In this document: one piece after another, positions 30,317-39,245 of the stretch | How positions within the stretch are numbered: the stretch's first letter is position 1 | Layout of the letters: the number at the start of each line of letters is the position of its first letter | Assembly: GCA_021155855.1 (NCBI GenBank) | Contig: JAJNAZ010000015.1 | Span: forward strand, 1-50,218 | Length of the DNA: 50,218 nucleotides | Source: Solirubrobacterales bacterium | GTDB taxonomy: Bacteria > Actinomycetota > Thermoleophilia > Solirubrobacterales > 70-9 | Direction: 5' to 3' | Notes under the pieces: generated by a model | Databases searched by the model: none | What the model was told of the DNA's origin: nothing | Seen by the model: the letters and a program-made list of their open reading frames with translations, nothing else | Made by a program: the position numbers and the translations under genes

Positions 30317-30754
30317 ATGCAGTTCGACAATTCGTTCTCGGTCCCCAAGCCGATCGACGAGGTATGGGCGACGATGCTCGACCTCGAGCGGGTGATCCCC
30401 TGTGTGCCCGACGCCCGGGTGCTCGAGAAGACCGACGACAAGAGCGTCAAGGCCGAGATCAAGATCAGGCTCGGGTCGATGTCGATGGACTACTCGGGCC
30501 CGGCCGAGATCGTCGAACGCGACGACGACGCCCATCGGGCCGTGCTGAGCGCGAATGCCAGGGAGGCTCGCGGACAGGGAAACGCGCGCGCGAAGGTCGA
30601 GATCCGGCTGGCCGATGCCGGGGGCTCGACCGATGCGACGATTCGCTCGGACGTCACCGTCACGGGAAGGGCGGCGGCGATGGGCGAGGGCGTGATATCG
30701 GGGGTCACCGAGGGGATGATCAACGAGTTCGCGGAGAACCTCGGCAAGCTCTGA
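30317..30754 (+). CDS. coxG: CoxG-like SRPBCC protein
   Basis: 145 aa, ribosome binding site GGGAGGAGG. The full length is one SRPBCC domain: FDNSFSVPKPIDEVWATMLD, then ERVIPCVPDARV and GVISGVTEGMINEFAENL. The VIPC-x-PG/DA block is typical of CoxG, reported in Oligotropha to help anchor CO dehydrogenase to the membrane. It heads the CO dehydrogenase locus, followed after 54 bases by five membrane proteins. That context supports a role in enzyme recruitment or electron transfer to the respiratory chain. Cytosolic side. Confidence 0.85.
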   Translation: MQFDNSFSVPKPIDEVWATMLDLERVIPCVPDARVLEKTDDKSVKAEIKIRLGSMSMDYSGPAEIVERDDDAHRAVLSANAREARGQGNARAKVEIRLADAGGSTDATIRSDVTVTGRAAAMGEGVISGVTEGMINEFAENLGKL

Positions 30755-30808: not shown

Positions 30809-31075
30809 ATGAACTTCCTGCTCGCTGCGGATACGACCTCCTGGTACATCGGGTTGGCGCTCGGACTCGTGGTCGTCGCCGTCGCCGCGGGCATCGTGAT
30901 CGCGATCCTCGTCCTCGCCGCGCGCATCGACAGCCAGGCGAAGACCGCGGTCGGCGCGGTCGAGACCTTGAGGGCGCAGACCGACGAGCTCGGCGGGATC
31001 GCCCGGGTCAACGACTCCGGCGTCCGCATCCTGCACTCGGCGCGGGCGCTGCGGAAGGCGGCGGTCGGCCGATGA
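30809..31075 (+). CDS. One-span membrane protein 1 of the cox cassette
   Basis: 88 aa. Nine polar residues, then WYIGLALGLVVVAVAAGIVI and further hydrophobic residues to about 37 (one membrane span), then a helical tail of 50 residues (ARIDSQAKTAVGAVETLRAQ). No family recognised. It resembles protein 2 around the span (SWYIGLALGLVV against LWYVALGLGLVV). Its TGA overlaps the next ATG (ATGA). Placed between coxG and coxM, it is likely to serve membrane docking or electron transfer, but no cofactor motif is present. Confidence 0.75.
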   Translation: MNFLLAADTTSWYIGLALGLVVVAVAAGIVIAILVLAARIDSQAKTAVGAVETLRAQTDELGGIARVNDSGVRILHSARALRKAAVGR

Positions 31076-31374
31076 GCGTCGTGGTCGCCCTCGCCGACTC
31101 GGAGCGGGACCTCTGGTATGTGGCGCTTGGTCTCGGGCTCGTCGTCGCGCTCGTCGTCGCCGGGATGCTGGTGCTGCTGATCCGCTACCTGCGCGAGATC
31201 GAGTCGAGCGTCGAGGGGCTGCTCGGGGGCGCCGGCAAGGTCGCCGCGAACACCGAGTACATCCCGCAGCTTGAGGCGACTACGCCGGTGCTCAACCAGA
31301 TCGCCGCCGAGGGAGCGGTCCAGGACGCGTACATGAACGCGCTCTCGGAGGGCTACGCGAAGGAATCGGAGTGA
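31072..31374 (+). CDS. One-span membrane protein 2 of the cox cassette
   Basis: 100 aa. Span in WYVALGLGLVVALVVAGMLV (15-34), then IRYLREIESSVEGLLGGAGK and a helical tail containing YIPQLEATTPVLNQIAAEG. Paralogue of protein 1 by the shared span motif, same orientation expected. No Cys, His pair or other metal or heme ligand. Coupled on both sides by four-base overlaps (ATGA and GTGA). Confidence 0.75.
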   Translation: MSVVVALADSERDLWYVALGLGLVVALVVAGMLVLLIRYLREIESSVEGLLGGAGKVAANTEYIPQLEATTPVLNQIAAEGAVQDAYMNALSEGYAKESE

Positions 31375-31649
31375 GCACGAACCTGCTCATCGTCGTCAGC
31401 CTCGGCGAGGCGCTGCTGGTGATCGTCGTCCTGGCGCTGGCGCTGGTCGACATCCGCCGCCGCCTGAACCGGATCGCGAGCGGGCTCGAGACGCTCGGCT
31501 CGGCGCTGAGCTCGGTCGAGTCCGAGCATCTGCGGCCGCTGCGCCCGGCGGTCGAGGACATCAACGACGCGTTTACCAGGATCATCGGCCTGATGCCGGG
31601 CGTCGCCGACAAGGCGGCGATCGTCGCCAGGCACGCGAGGGAACGATGA
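31371..31649 (+). CDS. One-span membrane protein 3 of the cox cassette
   Basis: 92 aa, GTG start overlapping the previous TGA. Span ALLVIVVLALALVDIRRRL near the N-terminus, then a long amphipathic helix region (LNRIASGLETLGSALSSVES, LRPLRPAVEDINDAFTRI). The post-span part resembles protein 5 (ELRRITNGLDVVIGAV). It is DUF948-like in shape but not in clear sequence. Function unknown. Confidence 0.75.
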   Translation: MSTNLLIVVSLGEALLVIVVLALALVDIRRRLNRIASGLETLGSALSSVESEHLRPLRPAVEDINDAFTRIIGLMPGVADKAAIVARHARER

Positions 31650-31903
31650 TCCTCGGCTTGATCGGCAGCATCGTCCTCCTGGTCGTCGTCGTCCCGGTCG
31701 TCGTCGTTCTGCTGCGCGGCGTCCTCGACGCCGCCCGCCGGGTCTCGGCGGCGGTCGAGGAGGTCGAGCGCGCGGCGAAGGCGGCCTCGGCGGACCTCGA
31801 CGCGGTCGAGCTGTTGGCGACGACCCAGACGCAGGTCAACCAGACGATCGGTGTGGTCGCGAACTACGGCGGATCGCTCGACGTCATCCTCGAGGACACC
31901 TGA
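31646..31903 (+). CDS. One-span membrane protein 4 of the cox cassette
   Basis: 85 aa, ATG overlapping the previous TGA (ATGA). Span IGSIVLLVVVVPVVVVLLRG (6-25), then a predicted coiled coil (RVSAAVEEVERAAKAASADL) and TQTQVNQTIGVVANYGGSLD. No known domain. The stop overlaps the next start by one base (TGATG). Confidence 0.75.
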   Translation: MILGLIGSIVLLVVVVPVVVVLLRGVLDAARRVSAAVEEVERAAKAASADLDAVELLATTQTQVNQTIGVVANYGGSLDVILEDT

Positions 31904-32634
31904 TGGACGCCGCCGCGCTGATCACGATCGTCGCCGTCGTACTGATCGTCCTCGCGCTGGTCGTCTACCTGGTCGCCGTGATCGGTGAGCTGCGGAGGAT
32001 CACGAACGGCCTCGACGTCGTCATCGGAGCGGTCGGCGAGATTCTCGCCAAGACCGAGCCGGTCGAAGGCGTCGTCAAGGCGATCAACGCCGACCTCTCG
32101 GCCGGCAGCGAGATGCTCGAGGGCCTGCTCGCGAAGAAGGCCGGGCCCGAGGACGGCCCGGGCCTGGTCGAGTCGCTGTTCCCGGGCGGCGGCGCGGCGC
32201 TGCTCCGGCGCCAGGGCCGCGAGGGTCCGGTCAAGAACATCGACGTCGTCTACACGCGCGGAGCCGTGCAGCTCGCGCGACTCGGCCGCGATAGCCCGCT
32301 CGGCACCGGCGGCGACCCGGGCGCCGCGCTCCGCGATCCGCTCTACTCGAGCGCCGCGGCGCGGTCGCTGTACTTCAACCCGGCCCGGCCGGCGATCGGC
32401 GCGCGGGAACGGCCGCGGTCGCCGGCGATCGGCAGCGGTGCCCCGACGGTCTACGGGGTCGGTGGTGACGAGGCTCGCCGCGATCCCGAGGTCAGCCGCG
32501 AGGGCGGCGACCGGGCCGATGCCTACGACCACCCGCCGGAGGAGGCGACGCCCGGGCCGGGTGCGAAGGACGAGCCCGACATGAAGGACATGGGCCTCGG
32601 CGCCCGGCCGAGCGACGAACGGTCGGCCGAGTAG
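31903..32634 (+). CDS. One-span membrane protein 5 of the cox cassette, with long soluble tail
   Basis: 243 aa. Span LITIVAVVLIVLALVVYLVA (6-25), helical region ELRRITNGLDVVIGAVGEIL and EGVVKAINADLSAGSEMLEG to about residue 80, then about 160 residues that are Gly/Pro/Arg/Asp-rich and probably disordered. The first 80 residues resemble protein 3. It is the largest and last of five coupled membrane genes, directly before coxM. The disordered tail could reach out to tether the CO dehydrogenase heterotrimer. Function is inferred from context only. Confidence 0.75.
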   Translation: MDAAALITIVAVVLIVLALVVYLVAVIGELRRITNGLDVVIGAVGEILAKTEPVEGVVKAINADLSAGSEMLEGLLAKKAGPEDGPGLVESLFPGGGAALLRRQGREGPVKNIDVVYTRGAVQLARLGRDSPLGTGGDPGAALRDPLYSSAAARSLYFNPARPAIGARERPRSPAIGSGAPTVYGVGGDEARRDPEVSREGGDRADAYDHPPEEATPGPGAKDEPDMKDMGLGARPSDERSAE

Positions 32635-32664
32635 GGTCCCAGGCAGGAGGAGGGAGCCTCGCAG

Positions 32665-33555
32665 ACACCGGCACCAATCGAATACGCGCGAGCGACCAGC
32701 GTCGAGAACGCGATCGCGCTCCTCGCCGAGCGGGGACCCGACGCCCGGGTGATCGCGGGCGGCCACAGCCTGCTGCCGATGATGAAGCTTCGGCTCGCCA
32801 ACCCCGAGCTCGTCGTCGACATCAACGACCTCGAGCACCTCGCCTACATCCGCGAGCAGGATTCCGAGATCCGGATCGGCGCCCTCACCCGCCACTACCA
32901 GCTGCTCGAGTCCGAGCCGCTCGCGCGCCACTTCCCGATCTTCGCCGACGCCGAGCGGGTGATCGCCGACCCGGTGGTCCGCAACCGGGGCACGATCGGC
33001 GGCTCGCTGGCCCAGGCCGATGCGGCGGAGGACCTCTCCGCGGTCTGCTCGGCGCTCAAGGCCTCGGTCGTGATCGCCGGCGGCGGCGGCGAGCGCGTCG
33101 TTTCGATGGAGGACTTCCACGTCGGCCCGTACACGACCGCGATCGACGATGCCGAGCTGCTGGTCGAGATCCGGATCCCGGTGCGCCCGGGCGCCGGCAG
33201 CGCCCACGCGAAGGTCGAGCGGCGGGCAGGCGACTGGGCGATCGTGGCGGTCGCCGGCGGGCTCTGGCTCGACGGCGAGACGATCGCCGACGCCGGGCTG
33301 GCGCTGAGCGCGGTCGGGTTGACCACCGTGCACGCGACCCGGGCCGAGGAGCTGCTGCGCGGCAAGAGGCCGTCGGAGGAGCTGTTCGCCGAGGCGGGGG
33401 CGATCGCCTCCGAGGACTGCTCACCGAGCCCCGACGGGCGCGGGCCGGTCGACTACAAGCGCCATCTCGCCGGCGAGCTCACCAAGCGTGCCCTGCGCCG
33501 GGCCGCCGAGCGCGCCCGCGCCGGCACGACCCCGGGAGGCCACACATGGAGGTGA
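32665..33555 (+). CDS. coxM: CO dehydrogenase medium (FAD) subunit
   Basis: About 296 aa if read from the first homologous residue. The FAD-binding loops are AGGHSLLPMMKLRL and VVRNRGTIGGSLAQADAAED, as in form I CoxM. A strong ribosome binding site, GGAGGAGGGAG (32646-32656), lies the right distance before 32665, but the codon there is ACA, and no ATG, GTG or TTG occurs in frame until the GTG at 32749, which would delete the first conserved block (PIEYARATSVENAIALLAER). So the true start is a non-standard codon or the annotated base is altered. CoxM passes electrons from CoxS to FAD and on to quinone. The end overlaps coxS by ten bases. Confidence 0.88.
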   Translation, partial: TPAPIEYARATSVENAIALLAERGPDARVIAGGHSLLPMMKLRLANPELVVDINDLEHLAYIREQDSEIRIGALTRHYQLLESEPLARHFPIFADAERVIADPVVRNRGTIGGSLAQADAAEDLSAVCSALKASVVIAGGGGERVVSMEDFHVGPYTTAIDDAELLVEIRIPVRPGAGSAHAKVERRAGDWAIVAVAGGLWLDGETIADAGLALSAVGLTTVHATRAEELLRGKRPSEELFAEAGAIASEDCSPSPDGRGPVDYKRHLAGELTKRALRRAAERARAGTTPGGHTWR

Positions 33556-34026: not shown

Positions 34027-36402
<2,376 letters not shown>

Positions 36403-36442
36403 GCGCCGGCTGACCACGCGAGGCGCGGAGCGCGCCCGAGAG

Positions 36443-37777
36443 GTGACCGCGGCAGTCGACATTCGCGACCTGACGGAGCTCGCCGCCGCACTCGGCCGGC
36501 GACTGCGCGACGCGGGGTTGCCGGTCACGCATGAGCGCTCGGCGCGGTTCGCGCAGGCGACGGCGCTGGTCGCGCCGCGGACACGCACCGAGCTCTACTG
36601 GACGGCGCGGCCGGTCTTCGTCTCCTCCGAGGCGCAGCTGCCCACCTTCGATCGCGTGTTCGCGGCCGTGTTCGATCCACGCTTGGAGCCCGACGAGGAT
36701 CGCGGCGACCCCTACTCGCCTGCGCTCGACCCGCCGACGAGCGAGCGGCCGCCGAGCCGCGGGGCGCGGTCCGTCGATCGGGACGGCACCGACGCGGACG
36801 GGCGCGCGATGAGCCCGAGCGGCTCAGCACCCGGCGACGATTCCGCGCGCGAGATCGAGGTGCCGCTGGCGCTGGCCAGCGACGAGGAGCGCCTGGGGGA
36901 GAAACGCTTCGACGCGCTCGAGCCCGACGAGCTGGCGCAGCTTCGGCGGCTGATGGCACAACTGGAGCTGGCGACGCCCCGCCGCCGCATGCGCCGAGCG
37001 CGCCGGGCGCGAAACGGCGAACGCCTGGACCTGCGCCGGATCTTGCGCGCGAGCCTGCGGACCGGGGGCGAGCCGATCAAGCTCGTGCGCAAGTGCCGGC
37101 GCACCGGCCCGCGCCGCCTGGTGCTGCTCTGCGACATCTCCGGCTCGATGGAGCCGTACGCGCGCGCCTACCTGCAGCTGCTGGGCTCGGCGGTGGCGAG
37201 CGGCACGCCGGCGGAGGCGTTCGTCTTCGCCACCCGGCTGACCAGGCTCACGCGCGCGCTCGGCGGGCGCAACCCGGAGGCGGCGATCCAACGCGCCGCG
37301 GCGGCGGCACCCGACTGGTCGAGCGGCACCCGAATCGGCCAGGCGCTGAAGGCGTTCAACGATCGCTACGGGCGCCGGGGGATGGCCCGGGGGGCCGTGG
37401 TCGTGATCCTCTCCGACGGCTGGGAGCGCGCCGATCCGGCGCTCGTCGCGCGCGAGATGGAGCGGCTGGCCCGGCTCGCGCACCGGATCGTCTGGGTCAA
37501 CCCCCGCGCCGGCGCGCCGCGCTTCGAGCCTCGCGCCGGCGGCATGGCGGCGGCGCTGCCGCACTGCGACGCGCTGGTCAGCGGCCACAACCTGAACGCC
37601 ATGGACGCGCTGGCCGAGGCGATCGCCGCGACAGCGGTCGCGAGCCCCGAACCCACCCGGACGTCGACCCCCGGGGCGGCCGAGCCGTCCTGGGCGAGCG
37701 CCGATCCGACCGAGGCGCAGAGGCCGGTTCCGATGCCGAGCGGCTACGGGCCCAAGCGCGGCAGGACGACGCCGTGA
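36443..37777 (+). CDS. coxE: VWA-domain protein CoxE-like
   Basis: 444 aa from the GTG at 36443. Residues about 1-90 are a CoxE N-terminal part (RFAQATALVAPRTRTELYWT), then a polar linker. The VWA domain starts near 225 with LLCDISGSMEPYARAY, whose DISGS (231-235) is the metal-ion-dependent adhesion site; HNLNAMDALAEAI is near the end. CoxE with the MoxR ATPase CoxD is needed for maturation of the Mo-Cu centre in Oligotropha. Here coxD is on the opposite strand 0.5 kb away. Cytosolic. Confidence 0.9.
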   Translation: MTAAVDIRDLTELAAALGRRLRDAGLPVTHERSARFAQATALVAPRTRTELYWTARPVFVSSEAQLPTFDRVFAAVFDPRLEPDEDRGDPYSPALDPPTSERPPSRGARSVDRDGTDADGRAMSPSGSAPGDDSAREIEVPLALASDEERLGEKRFDALEPDELAQLRRLMAQLELATPRRRMRRARRARNGERLDLRRILRASLRTGGEPIKLVRKCRRTGPRRLVLLCDISGSMEPYARAYLQLLGSAVASGTPAEAFVFATRLTRLTRALGGRNPEAAIQRAAAAAPDWSSGTRIGQALKAFNDRYGRRGMARGAVVVILSDGWERADPALVAREMERLARLAHRIVWVNPRAGAPRFEPRAGGMAAALPHCDALVSGHNLNAMDALAEAIAATAVASPEPTRTSTPGAAEPSWASADPTEAQRPVPMPSGYGPKRGRTTP

Positions 37778-37795: not shown

Positions 37796-38284
37796 GTGTC
37801 TTTCGACGTGGCTGACGGTCCGGTCTATCGAGCGGTGTTCCTGCGCATGCATCCGACCGGCAAGGCGGTGCTCAGCCTCAGCGAGGCGTCGCAGGGTCAG
37901 GAGGCGAGCCTGGCCGAGGCCGCCGCCGCCGAGCTCGGAATCCCGCCCGAGGACATCAAGGTCGTACACGAGGACACGGATCGGTTCGGGGAGGGCAACA
38001 GCTTCAACAGCTCGCCCAGCGACGCGGTCGCCGAGAATGTCGCGATCACCGCGCGGAAGCTGCGCGACAAGGCGCAGGTGATCGCGGCCTGGGTGCTGGA
38101 GGCGTCGCCGGACGCGCTGCGCTGGCAGAACGGGCACTGGTTCGCGGACTCCGGCGGTGAGGGCGTCAGCATCCAGGCGGTCGCCCTGCGGGCGTTTGCC
38201 GGCGACTCGCTTCCGGAGGGGGTCGAGGGCTCGCTCGACGCCCAGACCTCCTACCGGCTCGACGCTCCGCAGCCCGCGCGCTGA
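37796..38284 (+). CDS. Stand-alone CoxL-segment protein (mini-CoxL)
   Basis: 162 aa, GTG start. It aligns over nearly its full length with CoxL residues about 485-630: RMHPTGKAVLSLSEASQGQE against DDGRAVLSISAQTQGQA, ELGIPPEDIKVVHEDTDR against ELGISPDKIEVRHGDTDR, KLRDKAQVIAAWVLEASPDA and LPEGVEGSLD. The frame is intact. The cofactor contacts are lost: QGQ-x-HETT becomes QGQEASLA, and the FGLGTYGSRSTP loop becomes FGEGNSFNSSPS. So it cannot be an enzyme on its own. It could be a maturation decoy or chaperone, an evolved fragment with another job, or a remnant of a lost second large subunit. It sits between coxE and coxD. Confidence 0.8.
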   Translation: MSFDVADGPVYRAVFLRMHPTGKAVLSLSEASQGQEASLAEAAAAELGIPPEDIKVVHEDTDRFGEGNSFNSSPSDAVAENVAITARKLRDKAQVIAAWVLEASPDALRWQNGHWFADSGGEGVSIQAVALRAFAGDSLPEGVEGSLDAQTSYRLDAPQPAR

Positions 38285-38318: not shown

Positions 38319-39245
38319 CTAGCTCGCGTCCTTCGCGCCGACGAGCCAGTCGAGGCCCTGCTCGGAGATCTGCTCCTGGTCCTCGCGGTACTTGAGCACC
38401 GAACCGAGCGTCCGCTCTGCCGCCTCGGGATCGAGGCGCTCGACCCCGAGCACCTCCAGCGCCGCCACCCAGTCGATCGTCTCCGCGATCCCGGGCGGTT
38501 TTTGGACATCGCTCTCGCGCAGCCGCCGCACGGCGGCCGCCGCGCCGGCCGCGAGCGCCAGGGCCGTCCCAGGGACGCGCCGGCGGACGATCTCGACCTC
38601 GCGCTCGGTGCTCGGGTAGTCGATCCAGTGGTAGAGGCAGCGGCGCTTGAGCGCGTCGTGGAGGTCGCGAGTCCGGTTCGAGGTCACGATCACCGCCGGG
38701 GGGCGGCTCGCGCGCACCGTCCCGATCTCGGGGATCGTCACGCTCGACTCGCCCAGGAGCTCGAACAGGAACGCCTCGAAGTCGTCATCGGCGCGATCGA
38801 GCTCGTCGATCAGCAGCACCGCCGGCAATGGTCCCGGATGCCGGAGCGCCCGCAGCAGCGGCCGGGGTATCAAAAACTCCTCGCCGAACAGCTCGGCCTC
38901 GCTGAACTCGGCCCCGGTCGCCTCCGCCGCTCGGATCCTCAGCAGCTGGCGGGGATAGTTCCACTCATAAAGGGCCTCCGCGGCGTCGATGCCCTCGTAG
39001 CACTGGAGCCGGATCAGCGTCGTCCCGAGTGCCTTGGCGAGCGCCTTGGCGGCCTCGGTCTTGCCGACGCCCGCCTCGCCCTCGAGCAGCAGTGGCTGCG
39101 GCAGCCGCAGCGAGAGGAAGATCGCGGTCGCGAGCCCAGGGTCGGCCAGGTAGTCGACGGCGTCGAGGTCGCGCTCGAGCGATTCGATGTCGGGCACGGC
39201 GGCGCTCAGCGCCGCCTCGGGGCCCGGATGCGCCGCGGGGCTCAC
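38319..39245 (-). CDS. coxD: MoxR-type AAA+ ATPase CoxD-like
   Basis: 308 aa. Walker A GEAGVGKT (56-63), Walker B VLLIDELDRAD (143-152), sensor 1 in VIVTSNRTRDL and a MoxR lid with HWIDYPSTEREVEI. CoxD is the AAA+ chaperone that partially unfolds CoxL so that sulfur and copper can be inserted, together with the VWA protein CoxE. Usual length. Its ATG overlaps the TGA of the mocA-like gene upstream by four bases (39242-39245), so the minus-strand genes form one operon: coxI, mocA, coxD. Confidence 0.93.
   Translation of the reverse strand: MSPAAHPGPEAALSAAVPDIESLERDLDAVDYLADPGLATAIFLSLRLPQPLLLEGEAGVGKTEAAKALAKALGTTLIRLQCYEGIDAAEALYEWNYPRQLLRIRAAEATGAEFSEAELFGEEFLIPRPLLRALRHPGPLPAVLLIDELDRADDDFEAFLFELLGESSVTIPEIGTVRASRPPAVIVTSNRTRDLHDALKRRCLYHWIDYPSTEREVEIVRRRVPGTALALAAGAAAAVRRLRESDVQKPPGIAETIDWVAALEVLGVERLDPEAAERTLGSVLKYREDQEQISEQGLDWLVGAKDAS

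Follow-up and report, generated by a model that had tools for sequence, protein, structure and literature searches.

Five short genes, each encoding a protein with a single membrane span, lie inside a carbon monoxide dehydrogenase (CODH) operon of a Solirubrobacterales bacterium, and this arrangement raises the question of what such proteins do and whether they serve CODH alone. The window analyzed here is a stretch of 50,218 nucleotides (contig JAJNAZ010000015.1). The initial annotation had described five overlapping one-span genes between coxG and coxM, and this description was borne out: the block (30809-32634) comprises five intact plus-strand ORFs between coxG and coxM of a form I coxMSL cluster, the junctions overlap by 4, 4, 4, and 1 bases in order, and the homologues carry one span as well. 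We refer to the five proteins as M1 to M5; the genes of the block and its surroundings are as follows.

30317..30754, plus strand: coxG (SRPBCC; PF06240), adjoins the block
30809..31075, plus strand: M1, 88 aa, single-span, group A (M1/M2/M4)
31072..31374, plus strand: M2, 100 aa, single-span, group A
31371..31649, plus strand: M3, 92 aa, single-span, group B (M3/M5), GTG start
31646..31903, plus strand: M4, 85 aa, single-span, group A; relatives often start M[TI]LWWIG[ND]
31903..32634, plus strand: M5, 243 aa, single-span, group B
32659..33555, plus strand: coxM (FAD subunit); TCG at 32659-32661 stands where relatives have their start codon
33546..34025, plus strand: coxS (2Fe-2S subunit)
34027..36402, plus strand: coxL, form I CODH large subunit (AYRCSFR)
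36359..37777, plus strand: coxE-like VWA protein, start uncertain
38319..39245, minus strand: MoxR/CoxD-type AAA+ ATPase

The M1 to M5 ORFs show a strong coding signal in codon-position G+C bias, and the block lies far beyond chance: dozens of genomes have these genes, arranged in a small number of fixed orders. The associated enzyme belongs to form I: the CoxL of the window scores 1229 bits against TIGR02416 (cut-off, 991), its active-site loop (AYRCSFR) agrees with the AYxCSFR criterion, and its best match among solved structures is 8uem. None of the five M proteins matched a Pfam or NCBIfam family above the curated cut-off. CoxB, CoxC, CoxH, and CoxK of Oligotropha are membrane proteins of a cox operon, and they are not the M1 to M5 proteins. 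The MHYT domain, which we take to be the CoxC/CoxH domain, was not found in the window's genome, in line with the proposed absence of CoxC and CoxH.

Two features of the flanking genes deserve mention in their own right. Relatives of coxM begin with TTG, GTG, or ATG followed by CAG/CAA-ACN-CCN-GC; at this position, in frame just past the M5 stop, the window has TCG, and the first standard start codon of its coxM is the GTG at 32749. The TCG could be a base error or a mutation, or it could serve as an unusual start. In addition, a short ORF located 3' of coxE (37796-38284) resembles only a Moco-binding domain of CoxL (PF20256), and this small ORF is found again in many other cox clusters of Thermoleophilia, L013, L015, L054, L059, and L060 among them.

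The five genes had been suspected to stem from repeated duplication, given a resemblance between proteins 1 and 2 and a post-span helix common to proteins 3 and 5. Both resemblances hold. M1 and M2 are paralogous (tblastn, ~5e-8), and profile-profile comparison with the span removed matched the common helix of M3 and M5 at 1e-10. The same comparison grouped M4, whose kinship had been missed, with the first pair (M1-M2, 1e-6; M2-M4, 1e-7; M1-M4, 4e-5). Judged by these profiles, M1 to M5 are paralogues in two groups, {1,2,4} and {3,5}, which supports repeated duplication, and a further match between M1 and M3 (3e-5, span removed) hints that all five may be related.

With the survey in depth covering Actinomycetota, we examined where the block occurs. 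Of 61 related genomes, 7 contained M5, whereas all 36 other members of the window's own family lacked it, and an M2 profile matched in 30 of the 299 genomes sampled from the class. A contig scan with M5 alone gave no match, and a mixed M4 alignment did yield matches. A weak M5 match at L022 was rejected: the protein there is longer and multi-span, and its similarity is due to chance. The block surroundings were annotated with profiles built from these loci, and "beside" denotes a distance within 8 kb. Among the 36 blocks of the class sample, 17 lie beside form I cox and 15 beside [NiFe]-hydrogenase subunit genes, the latter having no cox in the stretch read. Collectively, 32 of the 36 blocks are beside one enzyme or the other. 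The remaining four are near neither, although the contigs of L019 and L053 carry a hydrogenase gene ~15 kb and ~40 kb away, respectively; L017 and L077 are alone. The association holds throughout Actinomycetota, as the phylum sample gave a similar picture (31 of 35 blocks), the exceptions being L155, L161, L162, and L169; the last is a short contig in which coxG adjoins the block, and L161 and L162 hold blocks standing alone. By eye, L112 and L155 show blocks away from both enzymes and near apparent genes for the RuBisCO large subunit and CbbX.

At the genome level, co-occurrence of the block with the two enzyme classes yielded a Fisher p of 9e-22 (class sample, hand-counted table), and the block is strongly linked to trace-gas oxidases taken as a group. 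On the hydrogenase side, the block is found somewhere in all 15 class-sample genomes whose large subunit is at least ~52% identical to that of L021, and related hydrogenases at ~40% identity are present in several genomes without it. On the CODH side, 34 form I CoxL genes of the class sample score above the TIGR02416 cut-off, and by hand count 12 of them have an M2 match nearby on their contig and 22 do not; the block is therefore not required for CO oxidation as such, and the expectation that it always accompanies form I coxMSL does not hold. The window's genome has no hydrogenase of the block-linked kind at E 1e-60. Separately, we observed form I cox within ~15 kb of a ~40%-identity hydrogenase on single contigs (G060:C10, G037:C91, G253:C33, and G208:C147), the first three of which contain the block too.

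These counts bear directly on the reading first proposed, in which the block is an undescribed accessory module specific to CODH. The 17 class blocks beside form I cox, together with the window's own, agree with an accessory role there. The 15 beside [NiFe]-hydrogenase genes contradict specificity, and on the hydrogenase side five comparable proteins (HylTM1-5) have been published, which leaves the proposal about half right. The initial annotation itself had held that a block with no particular tie to CO oxidation would count against it; an exclusive tie is lost through the blocks beside hydrogenases, and we consider a CODH-specific module very improbable.

Gene order (ARRANGEMENTS) distinguishes several versions of the block. 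The order M1-M2-M3-M4-M5, placed before coxM or near hhySL-moxR-coxE, is that of Thermoleophilia. The arrangement coxM-S-L-(xdhC)-coxG-M4-M5-M1-M2-M3 occurs in Pseudonocardia parietis, Kineosporia, Frankia, a Streptosporangiaceae MAG, and Acidimicrobiaceae/Nitriliruptoraceae MAGs, and in these other Actinomycetota, coxG directly precedes M4. In family f23 (L163-L167), the order is hhyS-M1-M2-M3-M4-M3'-hhyL, with five genes between the small- and large-subunit genes. The remaining orders (M1-M4-M2-M3, M1-M2-M3, or fewer) are found mostly beside hhySL and are commonly divergent from it (L069-L076 and L150-L160).

Some blocks have further neighbors. Beside them are two to three longer one-span proteins with repetitive polar, GSATSINSSA-like tails and weak similarity to the M families, as follows.

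Longer one-span proteins: L014 6056-8402, L016 11483-13748, L018, L021 12223-14600, L056, L102, L151, L154

A second hydrogenase large subunit that ends right after its C-terminal motif was seen at L066 (1873-3564), L079 (5258-6946), and L078 (10428-12116). L078 has an intact motif (DPCMTCATH); altered forms are present in L066 (DLCMYCAAQ) and L079 (NPSMSCATH). A reading of its TGA as selenocysteine was rejected, as this is an ordinary stop right after the motif.

MoxR and CoxE homologues are found near many blocks of both enzyme types, with coxE homologues adjoining many, but not all, of the hydrogenase-linked ones. The block might thus be a maturation platform that anchors the MoxR-CoxE AAA+/VWA pair while it matures CODH or hydrogenase, with no part in electron transfer. 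The two sets of genes nevertheless occur apart. L069, L071, L072, and L163-L167 combine the block with hydrogenase genes and show no MoxR/CoxE in the stretch read, whereas the block-less form I cox loci L080-L082 retain MoxR/CoxE. Because each occurs without the other, a maturation role is weakened, and we regard it as unlikely.

The history of the block was approached with quick trees carrying SH-aLRT support only. In the CoxL tree, which took in ten block-less form I CoxL proteins (L080-L086, L088, and the second coxL of L095 and of L105) and used L087, which is not form I, as the outgroup, block-bearing enzymes fall in two separate clades, and a single clade was rejected (AU p = 1.3e-4). 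Since L080-L088 were chosen for the absence of an adjoining block, their number is not a rate estimate. Given that block-bearing CoxL proteins do not form one clade, the module has undergone more than one gain, loss, or transfer among CODH lineages. On a concatenated M1-M4 tree, few changes of the cox label are needed and the AU test did not reject a single cox-linked clade (p = 0.56), so that two separate cox-linked clades of the block proteins were not upheld.

Across 60-96 homologues per family, nearly every M protein has one span near its N terminus. The 15 residues before the span contain a mean of 0.0-0.3 K/R and those after it 1.8-2.5; by the positive-inside rule, this charge pattern predicts an N-out/C-in topology with cytosolic tails, and the predicted tail side is the side where CODH works. 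The post-span helical moment exceeds that of composition shuffles (mean z, 1.4-2.2), with 63-92% of proteins over z = 1; amphipathicity is thus moderate, and 8-37% of tails are not over this value. AlphaFold2 models of M2 and M5, which are single chains from shallow alignments and carry no information on complexes, show helices 3-61 and 65-99 in M2 (mean pLDDT, 87) and one helix, 3-92, in M5 (pLDDT, 88-98 up to residue 80). Beyond this helix, M5 has a tail modeled at low confidence and conserved in Thermoleophilia cox-type blocks, to which a C-terminal M2 motif, VQDxYMNAL, is also common. No PDB match to M2 was found, whether by fold (Foldseek with the M2 model) or by sequence (M2 profile against all PDB chains).

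It had been suggested that the proteins dock CODH to the membrane or hand electrons to quinone. If the latter, they would be electron-carrying membrane subunits, with haem or FeS, that reduce quinone directly, and their position in operons of quinone-reducing enzymes is what one would expect of such subunits. Cysteine is scarce in them, however (mean, 0.06-0.34 per protein in the same homologues), and no invariant Cys or His was found in the M-family alignments, which makes cofactor binding unlikely and electron carriers extremely improbable. Docking stays the best guess. Predicted membrane-anchored helices without cofactors fit docking and quinone access and fit electron carriage poorly. Long helices lacking cofactor ligands, single spans, and the longer repetitive-tailed relatives adjoining some blocks would also suit a pure tether or clustering scaffold that concentrates oxidases at the membrane and handles no quinone. 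Five distinct, individually conserved paralogues would seem to exceed a simple tether's needs, and we judge this rather unlikely.

Known systems offer several points of comparison. For group 1l [NiFe]-hydrogenases, PMC9561532, citing Ortiz et al. 2021, summarizes HylTM1-5 as five short predicted transmembrane proteins whose genes lie between the small- and large-subunit genes. The window's block likewise encodes five short one-span proteins together in an oxidase gene cluster, and the L163-L167 genes sit in the HylTM position and match the window's family profiles; the identification as HylTM rests on architecture and on homology to the L163-L167 genes. The window differs in its partner, form I CODH, in the location of the block between coxG and coxM rather than between hydrogenase subunit genes, and in the long extra tail of M5. 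Group 1m clusters have been described with two small one-span proteins (PMC9561532). L071 shares the described DUF1059, TPR, CooC-like P-loop ATPase, and HybD-type protease genes, but has four such one-span proteins (M1-M4-M2-M3) instead of two. Architecture alone was the basis for these group names (1l for L163-L167 and 1m for L071). Among solved structures, the L021 hydrogenase large subunit is closest to 5aa5, which has been used as the best model for group 1m (PMC9561532).

Two systems illustrate how soluble oxidases reach the membrane. HucM assembles into a helical tube that has been proposed to supply quinone to Huc, a soluble hydrogenase (group 2a, M. smegmatis; PMC10017518), and the M block would similarly be a helical stalk between the membrane and a soluble oxidase. 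HucM, in contrast, is a single protein with a stalk only peripherally associated with the membrane (PMC10017518), and no Huc entry was matched by the M2 profile among all PDB chains, a comparison made for M2 alone that gave no sign of a sequence relation. For CODH, contact with the membrane is a requirement, and its recruitment there has been attributed to CoxG (PMC4240915); CoxG has also been reported to bind menaquinone. The coxG gene adjoins the block here and in many other block-bearing cox loci. Its product, reported to bring CODH to the membrane, has an SRPBCC fold unrelated to M1 to M5 and is encoded by a separate gene beside the block.

The module is common to form I CODH and [NiFe]-hydrogenases, and we infer that its role is docking. 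We put at roughly 0.6 the probability of the following reading as a whole. The window genes would be the CODH version of a module serving two unrelated enzyme classes, form I Mo-Cu CODH and [NiFe]-hydrogenases of the 1h/1l/1m neighborhood. M1 to M5 would form a cofactor-free, membrane-anchored helical scaffold that docks the soluble trace-gas oxidase and gives it access to quinone, beside CoxG. The cytosolic helices, often amphipathic, would bundle into a hetero-oligomeric stalk or collar on the membrane, with the spans fixing the complex to the respiratory membrane. The soluble oxidase would dock on this structure, where quinone could reach the FAD or FeS exit site of the enzyme, in the CODH case together with CoxG. 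Tails that differ between enzyme types would give partner specificity. CODH and hydrogenase would thereby share a task, that of soluble enzymes needing a lipid-soluble quinone, rather than a fold or a metal. Tentatively, the five proteins could even constitute one interchangeable adaptor, a hetero-oligomeric quinone-delivery stalk repeatedly exchanged or recruited in Actinomycetota for two structurally unrelated oxidases (Mo-Cu CODH and several [NiFe]-hydrogenase groups). The hydrogenase version has already been reported by name; no report linking such proteins to CO dehydrogenase was found in the open-access literature searched, and within that literature both the CODH version and the origin that the two versions share appear to be new.

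How soluble CO and H2 oxidases pass electrons to membrane quinone is a current question, for which CoxG and HucM are worked examples. A module that lacks cofactors and follows both enzyme classes suggests that the two have solved this problem in the same physical way, an idea that can be tested in culturable strains, for example Pseudonocardia parietis DSM 45256. It also offers a clue to what the HylTM proteins of group 1l, as yet unexplained, may do. Bacteria living on trace CO or H2 in air may thus plug either enzyme into the respiratory chain via one interchangeable membrane fitting.
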